Assembly: GCF_000765475.1 (NCBI RefSeq)
Contig: NZ_JRHO01000009.1
Span: 62,001 to 126,000, forward strand
Length of the DNA stretch: 64,000 nt
DNA from: Methanococcoides methylutens
GTDB taxonomy: Archaea > Halobacteriota > Methanosarcinia > Methanosarcinales > Methanosarcinaceae
Direction of reading: 5' to 3'
The notes under the pieces are model-generated. The model did no database searches. It was not told the DNA's origin and was given only the letters and a program-made list of their open reading frames with translations. Below are positions 35,011 through 38,184 of the stretch, one piece after another. Positions within the stretch are counted from its first letter, which is position 1, and each line of letters begins with the position of its first letter. The translations under genes and the position numbers were made by a program.

Positions 35011-35232
35011 ATGACCCGTATTACAGCTACACCACAAAAGAACTCTATAAGTGCTCTGATCGATATCTTTGAAATGAGCAATATGCGCGAACCTTTCCTT
35101 GATGAGGTAGGTAGCATGCTTGAGGTGATGGGTACCCATGGTTCAATTACAGAAGGAGCTGTGGCTTATGAAGATGAAGAGATCTACCATGTTCACACAA
35201 TGAGCATCATAGCACCTCTGAAGAAAAAATGA
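35011..35232 (+). CDS. Small soluble protein of unknown function
   Basis: This 73-residue, mildly acidic protein has a predicted helix around SALIDIFEMSNMREPFLDEVGSMLEVMG and an end in APLKKK. No known domain recognised. AGTTTACTATAATG directly precedes the gene; the TATTAATAGTA about 25-30 bases upstream may be its TATA box, giving a leaderless message. It follows feoB by 76 bases, so an iron link is possible but unproven. Confidence 0.5.
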   Translation: MTRITATPQKNSISALIDIFEMSNMREPFLDEVGSMLEVMGTHGSITEGAVAYEDEEIYHVHTMSIIAPLKKK

Positions 35233-35251: not shown

Positions 35252-36037
35252 TTAAATGCTCGAATTTAAGAGTTCTTCAATGTCCATATTGATCTCAGGG
35301 GTAGAATCCCTGTAAAAACTGTGGTCACGTATGATATTCCCATCCATTGTGATGCTATCAAGGTGGCCATACCAATATATTACCATTCCTGTACCATAAT
35401 CCCTTTCGTAGTACTGGAACTGTTTTTTAAGATAATGGGCATGTTCTCTTTCATCCCCGAACATCGCCTTGCTCTCGATCCAGAGAATTTCCACATCACC
35501 AACGTAGATCGGCTCATCCAGCAGGAAATCCGGGGTCTTTTGCATTCCCATTTCCCTCAGGTCCTCTTCGGTGCTGAAACCAAGTTCCTTGTATTTGAGC
35601 CATTTTTCAATAATTTCTTCTCCCATTTGGCCCCGGATAGACTGGGCTTTATGTGCTTCAGGAGAAAAGAAATGGTCCTCATTTATCGCTTCGGTTATCT
35701 CTCTTGCCAGGCGCTTATCTTCAAGTGAATCGAGATGTTTCAGAACATACTTCTTAGAGTAGCCAAGCTCCTTGATGATCACTGAAGCCATGAGAGTAGC
35801 CGGAACTTCGTTGTCTTTTGCCAGTACAATGATGCTTATGCCTTTGTTCCATAAGTAGAGGTAGTTCCTGCTCTTGCTCTGGAGACTGTGCATCTTCCTC
35901 TTGACCTTAGATACTATCTTTTGATTGAGTATTGCAGCAATAACTCCTGCAGGCTCATTGAACTTCAGCGCCAGATCATCGATGTTTTCCGGATCATTCA
36001 CATTTTCATATATCTGGAGGTATGTTCTTTTATCCAT
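35252..36037 (-). CDS. TPD-motif nuclease, PD-(D/E)xK fold (CDIN1/C15orf41-like)
   Basis: This 261-residue protein has helix-turn-helix-like segments in the first ~130 residues (DDLALKFNEPAGVIAAIL; LMASVIIKELGYSKKYVLKHL) and a C-terminal nuclease-type domain with T168-P169-D170 and E188-S-K190, the D...ExK core of the PD-(D/E)xK superfamily. The TPD motif and domain order resemble human C15orf41 (CDIN1) and its archaeal relatives. DNA would be the expected substrate. The start overlaps the glycosylase gene by 8 bases, so a joint role in DNA repair is likely. Confidence 0.75.
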   Translation of the reverse strand: MDKRTYLQIYENVNDPENIDDLALKFNEPAGVIAAILNQKIVSKVKRKMHSLQSKSRNYLYLWNKGISIIVLAKDNEVPATLMASVIIKELGYSKKYVLKHLDSLEDKRLAREITEAINEDHFFSPEAHKAQSIRGQMGEEIIEKWLKYKELGFSTEEDLREMGMQKTPDFLLDEPIYVGDVEILWIESKAMFGDEREHAHYLKKQFQYYERDYGTGMVIYWYGHLDSITMDGNIIRDHSFYRDSTPEINMDIEELLNSSI

Positions 36038-36674
36038 TCTTTACCTCTTTGTCTTTGAAGCTGTGCAAGAGAACGCAATCATCACATTGTTTCTTACCAC
36101 AGTAGTTCTTGGCATATTCTACTATCAAAGCATGGTATTCCTTGTATAGTGGTACATCTGATGGAAGTTCTGTCTCGAACAGCTTTTGAAGTTGCATATA
36201 GTTGCCTTCGATCCCGATACATTTCATGATGCGGGTGGTGTAGGCATCGATAACGAACTTTGGCTTATCTGCAGCATAAAGCACAATACTATCTGCAGTT
36301 TCGTTTCCCACTCCATTTAAGGAAAGCATAAGTTCCCTCAGCTCATCCGTAGGTAACTGGAATATGTTATTCATTCCTTCTGTAGTAAAGAACTGTGCAA
36401 TGTCTTTCAGCCGTTTTGCTTTCTGGCGATAGAAACCGCAACATCGGACAAGCTCTTCGATATATTCCACATCTGCATTTGCCAGTTTCTCAGGCTCTAT
36501 GAGGTCGGACCTTTTGAGAGCATCTATTGCTTTCTCAACATTTGTCCATTTTGTCTGTTGTGTCAGTATTGTTCCGATAACAACCTCAAAAGGCGTGTCA
36601 GCCGGCCACCATTGAAGATGCCCGATCATCCCGAGAAGTGTCTCGTAGATGTCACTGACCAATTCGTTTTGCAT
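36030..36674 (-). CDS. EndoIII-superfamily DNA glycosylase, Lys-to-Glu type
   Basis: This 214-residue HhH-GPD protein has LNGVGNETADSI, the helix-hairpin-helix, and VIDAYTTRI with catalytic Asp143. The lysine of bifunctional endonuclease III is Glu125 here, exactly 18 residues before the Asp as in the family, which fits a monofunctional glycosylase such as MagIII-type 3-methyladenine enzymes. The C-terminus has CGKKQCDDC but no fourth cysteine of the usual 4Fe-4S loop, so the cluster is probably absent or altered. It is translationally coupled to the TPD nuclease. Confidence 0.82.
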   Translation of the reverse strand: MQNELVSDIYETLLGMIGHLQWWPADTPFEVVIGTILTQQTKWTNVEKAIDALKRSDLIEPEKLANADVEYIEELVRCCGFYRQKAKRLKDIAQFFTTEGMNNIFQLPTDELRELMLSLNGVGNETADSIVLYAADKPKFVIDAYTTRIMKCIGIEGNYMQLQKLFETELPSDVPLYKEYHALIVEYAKNYCGKKQCDDCVLLHSFKDKEVKNG

Positions 36675-36811: not shown

Positions 36812-37306
36812 TCAATTCCAGAATTCCTTCTCATAATCTTCAGGAAGGTTATCAAGCTTCATCATTTTGTCAAGCTTGCTTTTTGCTGCATTATCTTCCT
36901 TTTCAAAAGTATCATTAAGAACTTCAGTTTCCTGCTCTTCTAGAATTGTTTCATGTGAGTGGATCACCGTTGTATGTTCGGTTTCCATCACAACTTCTTC
37001 CTCGATCACAGGTTTGAAAGGGATAACTTCTTTCTCTTCTTCTTTTTCAGCTCTGACAACGGGCTGTACAGGTTCCCTTTCATATTTCCTTTCCGGAGAT
37101 GGTCCCGGTTTATATCCAAGGCGCATGCGGGTTTCTTCGGCATAGGTGTCGGACACGATGTCTGAATGGTTGCCTTGTTTGTGAGTTGAACTGTATCCGA
37201 TGGTGCAGTTCTCCTCGCCTGTCCTCCAATCCACATGGAATAGGTGGCAGTTCTTTCCCTTGCATTCTAATTCGTTGTCCAATGGGCATATTTCGGGTAA
37301 CACCAT
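36812..37306 (-). CDS. Cys-rich N-terminus with acidic tail, unknown function
   Basis: This 164-residue protein starts MVLPEICPLDNELECKGKNC and has a further NCTIGY, giving four cysteines and two histidines in the first 36 residues, a possible metal or cluster site. The rest is low-complexity and acidic (many E and V), likely disordered or coiled. No known family recognised. It lies 29 bases after prs on the same strand. Confidence 0.6.
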   Translation of the reverse strand: MVLPEICPLDNELECKGKNCHLFHVDWRTGEENCTIGYSSTHKQGNHSDIVSDTYAEETRMRLGYKPGPSPERKYEREPVQPVVRAEKEEEKEVIPFKPVIEEEVVMETEHTTVIHSHETILEEQETEVLNDTFEKEDNAAKSKLDKMMKLDNLPEDYEKEFWN

Positions 37307-37335: not shown

Positions 37336-38184
37336 TTATAATTTCTTCAGGAAATCTGCAATAAGGGGTGCAACACTGATGTGACTTTGTGCTTTTTCCA
37401 GCGTGTCGGTCGCAATGACCTCATGTACGCCTGCATTGTAAAGTCTCAGGACACCGTTTTTGGTGAGCACCGGGTGTACGCATGCGATGTACACGTCCTT
37501 TGCACCCTGGCTACGTAACAGTTTGATTGATTCTGCCATGGTCCCACCGGTTGCGATCATATCATCTATCAGTATTACATCTCTGCCTGTAACATCGATG
37601 TTTTTTGTCTTGATGGTAACCGTATCTCCGGAAAGCCTTGTCTTCTCAAGATAGTCGTACTCGATGCCAACATCTTCGGATGCACTTTCTGCAAGTGCAA
37701 TAGCACCGGCATCAGGGGAAACGATCAATGGATTTTCAAGATTCAGTGATCTGATGTAGTTACCCAGAAGGTGGGATGCATCAAGATCGAAAGAATCAGC
37801 ACTGAAATGTTCAAGTACGCTCTTTTCGTGAATATTTACGGTGATGACCCTGTCCGCTTTGATGGTGCGGGCAATGGCACGTGCGCTGATGGCCTCTCCG
37901 GATTTGAATATCCTGTCCTGTCTGGCATAGCCCATGTAGGGTATTACCACCGTGATGGTAGGTGCGTCTTCGCATGCATCTATCAACTGCAACAGGGAAA
38001 TAAGGTCCGAATCAGTTGGTGTGCTCTGGATGATCGTGACATCATCGGTTATGTCTTCAAGTACTCTTGTGTAAACCTCTCCATCGGGGAAACGGTTGAA
38101 CTCACAAAGTGACGGTTCCATATTTAGTTCTCTTGCAACCCGTGATGCGAGCAACTGTGATGCAGGTCCTGCTATGATTTTCAA
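37336..38184 (-). CDS. prs: Ribose-phosphate pyrophosphokinase
   Basis: This 282-residue protein has VVIPYMGYARQDR, the flexible-loop region and the PRPP-binding motif VILIDDMIATGGTM. It makes PRPP for nucleotide, histidine and cofactor synthesis. It is shorter than bacterial enzymes (about 315), as in other archaea. It is preceded by moaC on the same strand after a gap of 87 bases. Confidence 0.95.
   Translation of the reverse strand: MKIIAGPASQLLASRVARELNMEPSLCEFNRFPDGEVYTRVLEDITDDVTIIQSTPTDSDLISLLQLIDACEDAPTITVVIPYMGYARQDRIFKSGEAISARAIARTIKADRVITVNIHEKSVLEHFSADSFDLDASHLLGNYIRSLNLENPLIVSPDAGAIALAESASEDVGIEYDYLEKTRLSGDTVTIKTKNIDVTGRDVILIDDMIATGGTMAESIKLLRSQGAKDVYIACVHPVLTKNGVLRLYNAGVHEVIATDTLEKAQSHISVAPLIADFLKKL

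Follow-up and report, generated by a model that had tools for sequence, protein, structure and literature searches.

Human CDIN1 is a disease gene that is named a nuclease without a known substrate, and its archaeal (Euryarchaeota) orthologues have been reported previously, with the human–archaeal match printed as E 1e-34 (PMC7092493). Can the gene neighbourhood of such an orthologue tell what the protein does? The question is raised by a stretch of 64,000 nucleotides from Methanococcoides methylutens (contig NZ_JRHO01000009.1; hereafter, the window), in which the gene of a TPD/CDIN1-family protein (35252..36037, minus strand) and the gene of a DNA glycosylase (36030..36674, minus strand) have 8 bases in common (36030..36037, minus strand). 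The first-pass annotation of the window, made from the sequence alone, took this overlap as a sign of a two-enzyme base-excision pathway that, were the pairing conserved, could supply a function for the eukaryotic protein. We found the two overlapping reading frames just as they had been described. For the human protein, nuclease activity on DNA or RNA was absent in the assays of CDIN1 complexes reported in PMC7261414, and a 2026 paper states that no nuclease activity of CDIN1 has been published (PMC13370696).

Products of the two overlapping genes

From its ORF, a Pfam match, an alignment and an AlphaFold2 model, the TPD protein (261 aa) was identified as a member of the TPD/CDIN1 family and a predicted PD-(D/E)XK-type nuclease. 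It matches PF14811 with E 3.8e-48 (163.3 bits against a cut-off of 27); its closest named match is to M. vulcani (95%). An alignment of 28 archaeal TPD proteins shows T168-P169-D170, E188-S189-K190, E140 and Q206 unchanged in all 28. Membership of this family, as assigned earlier, was borne out, and the active site of PD-(D/E)XK type is intact. A predicted helical N-terminus (residues 1-120) is followed by the nuclease domain (about 125-261), and the AlphaFold2 model of the protein is confident (pLDDT 95.2). Considering the model of the nuclease domain (residues 125-261), we saw that its top fold matches were AF1548 (Z 7.5), BsaWI (7.4) and the small subunit of BspD6I (7.2), both the best Z (7.5, over 106 residues) and the best Foldseek E-value (0.029) lying under the tool's firm level; Cdn1 and EndoMS are further neighbours, and the leading rows are PD-(D/E)XK nucleases. 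Most of the fold neighbours act on DNA; RNA enzymes (viral PA endonucleases) are among them as well, and the substrate therefore cannot be read from the fold. When the PDB was searched to E 10 with a profile of the TPD family, unrelated chains alone came back (best E 0.11), which ruled out a solved CDIN1 chain as a comparison. Judging by motif and predicted fold, the protein would be a metal-dependent nuclease of the PD-(D/E)XK type, with cleavage as its presumed activity.

The glycosylase (214 aa) carries an HhH-GPD domain (PF00730, E 4.9e-20). Its best solved relative by sequence is H. pylori MagIII (6.5e-24), which is also its best fold match (1pu7; Z 22.8, rmsd 1.8 over 188 residues); endonuclease III follows with Z 20.8. 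Since the protein scored below the NCBIfam cut-offs for both the MagIII type (NF010494, 115.9 against 192) and Nth (68 bits against 212), we name it MagIII-like only.

The 4Fe-4S loop had been described as incomplete. It reads C192-X4-C197-X2-C200, and its last cysteine is indeed missing; however, C152 is conserved in every orthologue (47 of 47), so that a modified site with four cysteines may persist. This cysteine, missing from the two Nth rows of the alignment, aligns with the conserved Arg of the EndoIII 'KRLG' and would be located near the Fe-S cluster; the enzyme may retain a cluster, or a metal site, whose geometry has changed. In the Pfam scan the glycosylase did not match PF10576; the Nth protein of locus L071 does. 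The displaced fourth cysteine is a new observation. To our knowledge, MagIII itself has no Fe-S cluster.

The Glu125 that the first reading had noticed at the position of the EndoIII lysine is found in 47 of 47 orthologue rows, with Lys in the two rows of this alignment that are genuine Nth; the catalytic Asp, D143, is present in 49 of 49 rows. As a novelty Glu125 was ruled out, the same residue being published for MagIII, MpgII, Mja-UDG and Sis-HhH-GPD (PMC11754123). In the account given there, Mja-UDG is monofunctional and Sis-HhH-GPD bifunctional, and Glu125 therefore leaves nicking unsettled; what stands of the proposed non-nicking glycosylase is that enzymes of this type include monofunctional ones (PMC11754123).

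Phage and plasmid collections gave no match, and a mobile or phage origin was rejected on that account; a scan for bacterial-type promoters found no excess.

Reach of the pairing across genomes

The local block of genes (PRS, MoaC, YjeF) is conserved in the family; adjacency by itself is therefore weak evidence. Upstream of the pair are the gene of a 164-aa acidic protein that has cysteines clustered at its N-terminus and no Pfam match (36812..37306, minus strand) and that of ribose-phosphate diphosphokinase (37336..38184, minus strand), a conserved synteny marker; on the other side, a convergent 73-aa ORF (35011..35232, plus strand) is conserved in several genera. The 164-aa protein adjoins TPD or the glycosylase in most Methanosarcinaceae, and it is kept beside TPD also in Methanosarcina, where the adjoining glycosylase is missing.

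Close coupling of the two genes is conserved in most Methanosarcinaceae genera, and the overlap persists across diverged genera of the family. In six ANME-3-type loci the pair is retained despite a changed upstream block; there YhbY precedes it (for L119, over the cut-off of PF01985 and below that of the NCBIfam YhbY model). In one genome, glycosylase and TPD form a single 487-aa frame (L105:4323-5786). Compared with close relatives, this frame is due to a deletion of 8 bases, and it was seen in one MAG, for which reason we rejected it as strong support for the pairing.

Among 392 genomes of the phylum, TPD was present in 115: 60 in family f1, 4 in f2 and 51 in f9, which from its gene content we take to be Archaeoglobaceae; the genera of f1 were assigned through contig matches and the taxon names of loci, and the family name of f2 is likewise putative. 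The glycosylase model was present in 134 of the 392 at a threshold of E<=1e-35. Both genes were found in 63 genomes, TPD alone in 52, the glycosylase alone in 71 and neither in 206 (p 5.6e-8); as all 63 genomes with both genes fall into two families of one order, the co-occurrence reflects phylogeny and not repeated association, and despite its p-value we rejected it as support for a pathway. Adjacency on one strand was observed in 41 of the 64 TPD genomes of f1 and f2, i.e. in 41 of 115 in the phylum, all of them from one family; in f9 the count was 0 of 51. A tree of 87 TPD rows, made by a quick method, showed adjacency as one change, with 40 rows on one side and a support of 88. (Left out of the tree were L163, which has a frame shift, and L174, truncated where its contig ends; ORF calling gave no TPD frame in L135; repeated loci were L084=L172, L086=L161, L088=L157 and L090=L143.)

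Furthermore, each gene persists alone. TPD occurs without an orthologous glycosylase in Methanosarcina, in Methanimicrococcus and in 51 of 51 TPD genomes of f9; a search with the family also gave a match in Methanosarcina acetivorans. In 19 Methanosarcina-type genomes (g6 and g7) TPD is in place and the glycosylase is missing there; such genomes have, as read in 5 of the 19, another MagIII-type paralogue elsewhere, which has ∼45% identity and no cysteine loop. In f2 the two genes lie on different contigs in three of four genomes, the fourth being without a glycosylase match; in G061 (locus L091), of the family in which the pair occurs, the glycosylase is retained and TPD was not found.

The pairing is thus a lineage-specific arrangement of one origin. 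The survey of archaeal neighbourhoods showed that outside one family the two genes are rarely neighbours; with 41 of 115 adjacent, in one family and by a single change on the tree, the pair was rejected as a general pathway, and neither the coupling as shared base excision nor its promise as a key to the eukaryotic protein was supported by the survey. We regard this outcome as a caution against deducing function from the one operon seen in the window.

Neighbours of TPD in other lineages

Other lineages have other genes in front of TPD. All 14 of the ANME-2 loci that were read, on 12 distinct contigs, have the gene of aRF1 immediately in front of TPD; its identity is clear from the L083 protein, with 596 bits against a cut-off of 234.7. 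In f9, where all 51 TPD loci were read, an NMD3-like gene was found <=200 bp upstream in 28 and at 351 bp in a 29th; KEOPS Pcc1 was close upstream in 8 of 51 and archaeosine synthase in 3 of 51 (L081 over the cut-off, L264 at 411 against 440, L082 by clustering), while no close co-directional upstream partner was called in 11 of 51, one of these at a contig end. The short NMD3-like match covers the C-terminal part of the NMD3 model only, and in G183, G217 and G225 (f9 genomes with both at the site) the short protein accompanies a complete NMD3 as an additional copy. As a stand-alone protein of ∼90 aa it is seen at L071:4456-4737, L070:5706-5975 and L073:4376-4669. In the phylum Hydrothermarchaeota, with TPD in 13 of 23 genomes, HemK2/Mtq2 (with RsmA and DUF655 before it) is upstream in 2 of the 13 and an aminotransferase in another 2; the remaining 9 are without a close upstream partner or unreadable. 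Altogether, five of the seven close-partner families of TPD belong to translation or tRNA, and each partner is confined to one lineage.

Some loci hold further genes of note. In L071 and L079, Nth is one gene away from TPD. In L253 (3681-5173), a RecJ-family nuclease and Pcc1 are directly upstream of TPD, with RsmA and HemK2/Mtq2 ∼2 kb away on the other strand. In Pyrohabitans (L181:2547-4595), a MutS-like gene precedes TPD by 300-400 bp with an antisense 117-aa gene between them, and a DUF488 gene comes after TPD.

How unusual are such partners? As a random control we took 40 close upstream neighbours, drawn in pairs from 20 stretches of two genomes; 7 of the 40 had no family match, and the set contained 2 PIN proteins, 0 translation or tRNA genes and nothing that was clearly a repair gene. 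For 5 of 7 families against 0 of 40 controls Fisher's test gave p 1.4e-5, or 2.6e-4 with the two PIN proteins counted, for a category that was chosen post hoc and with translation and repair classes assigned by reading family names. If only conserved genes are eligible as lasting partners, with an assumed translational background of 35%, p becomes 0.056; given this value and the post hoc category, the theme is a good lead and not a proof. A glycosylase control covered 20 loci from lineages without TPD, 3 of them without a BLAST match; 12 had a close upstream gene, and the 9 that were scanned comprised five of the F420 reductase type, two thioredoxins, an NAD synthase and a pyridine-nucleotide oxidoreductase, with translation genes in 0 of 9. 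In L098, L268, L275, L276 and L280, from five families, an F420-dependent reductase of the npdG type immediately precedes the glycosylase. These F420 reductase and thioredoxin neighbours make a redox link of the MagIII-like glycosylase possible.

In the open-licence PMC literature, which does not extend to subscription papers, we found no study of archaeal TPD gene neighbourhoods; the repeated occurrence of TPD next to translation genes, most of all aRF1, HemK2/Mtq2 and NMD3-like ones, is new here.

We prefer, tentatively and short of calling it probable, a reading in which TPD is an ancient nuclease linked to RNA or ribosomes, the MagIII-like glycosylase acts alone, and the pairing, lineage-specific and with one origin, is not key to the function of the nuclease. 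As the gene neighbourhoods suggest, TPD would be a metal-dependent nuclease with its main job on RNA or ribosomes rather than in base excision, and its site of action might be near translation termination, large-subunit maturation or tRNA. In Methanosarcinaceae it would have come into an overlapping gene pair with the glycosylase, which on its own would remove damaged bases and presumably pass the abasic site to the usual AP endonucleases of the cell. In yeast, Mtq2 methylates eRF1 and belongs to the pre-60S factors, where it co-purifies with Nmd3 (PMC7708063); the counterparts of three archaeal partners of TPD therefore fall within a single module. CDIN1 has as its partner Codanin-1, a protein similar to CNOT1, and the authors who described this likeness had already proposed a role in RNA metabolism (PMC7092493, PMC11911400); we count the likeness as fitting an RNA- or ribosome-linked TPD. 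Counted against are the confinement of each partner to one lineage, the post hoc category, the DNA-type contexts (Nth, RecJ, MutS-like), the folds that are mostly those of DNA nucleases, and the inactivity of human CDIN1 on RNA or DNA in the assays of PMC7261414. With TPD directly downstream of aRF1, a HemK2/Mtq2-family methyltransferase gene, an NMD3-like gene, Pcc1 or archaeosine synthase in several archaeal lineages, a role on RNA or ribosomes becomes directly testable in archaea.

A bolder version, which we consider unlikely, would make TPD/CDIN1 an ancient ribosome-linked RNase that joins the aRF1/Mtq2/NMD3 module in proofreading the large subunit or in surveillance of stalled translation, Codanin-1 being a CNOT1-like scaffold added later in eukaryotes. 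If it were true, congenital dyserythropoietic anaemia type I would be in part a disorder of ribosome or RNA surveillance.

The same neighbourhoods could be coincidental, translation genes being abundant among conserved genes, and TPD could be a DNA-structure nuclease of the resolvase or repair type. NucS/EndoMS and restriction enzymes among the nearest folds, repair genes (MutS-like, Nth) near TPD in some loci and the description of CDIN1 as Hjc-like (PMC7261414) all fit such an enzyme; we nevertheless find it rather doubtful, since the 40 random controls contained 0 translation genes and the glycosylase, itself a genuine repair gene, showed 0 of that class among its 9 scanned partners.

Two-enzyme base excision, in which a monofunctional MagIII-like glycosylase would make the abasic site and the TPD nuclease would cut or process it, draws on the overlap conserved in most genera of the family, on the six ANME-3-type loci that kept the pair while upstream genes changed, on the single 487-aa frame and on the monofunctional Mja-UDG of the Glu group (PMC11754123). 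It became improbable once we saw that each gene persists without the other, that adjacency has one origin only, that elsewhere the partners of the glycosylase are F420 reductase and thioredoxin and not a nuclease, and that the fused frame came from an 8-base deletion in one MAG. Equally improbable is a shared transcript and nothing more, an operon for nucleic-acid upkeep in general whose two products are linked neither physically nor by pathway and where the task of TPD would be neither repair nor translation: conservation of the whole block in the family agrees with it and makes adjacency alone weak, but the overlap is kept in diverged genera, and in the ANME-3-type loci the pair has outlasted the block.

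Comparison with known systems

The window's TPD protein belongs, over the cut-off, to the Pfam family of CDIN1/C15orf41 (PF14811), with the conserved catalytic Asp and E-x-K in common; the operon setting differs, and there is no Codanin-1 here, the Codanin-1 search of PMC7092493 having been made in eukaryotic groups only. With the PD-(D/E)XK nucleases BsaWI, AF1548, NucS/EndoMS and Can2/Cdn1, TPD shares the E...D...E-x-K motif, and its nuclease domain resembles them in predicted fold at a level under the tool's firm one; it adds a helical N-terminus of ∼120 residues, with no meaningful sequence match in the PDB.

On the glycosylase side, endonuclease III (Nth) has the HhH-GPD fold in common with the window's protein, which lacks the catalytic Lys and departs from the Fe-S spacing C-X6-C-X2-C-X5-C. 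H. pylori MagIII, the closest in both sequence and fold, has the same Glu at the lysine position and the catalytic Asp (here D143); the window's glycosylase, in contrast, has four conserved cysteines and misses the NF010494 cut-off. Mja-UDG and Sis-HhH-GPD share with it the Glu in place of Lys. In Sis-HhH-GPD, all four cysteines are in the C-terminal loop, whereas in the glycosylase of the window the fourth is Cys152.
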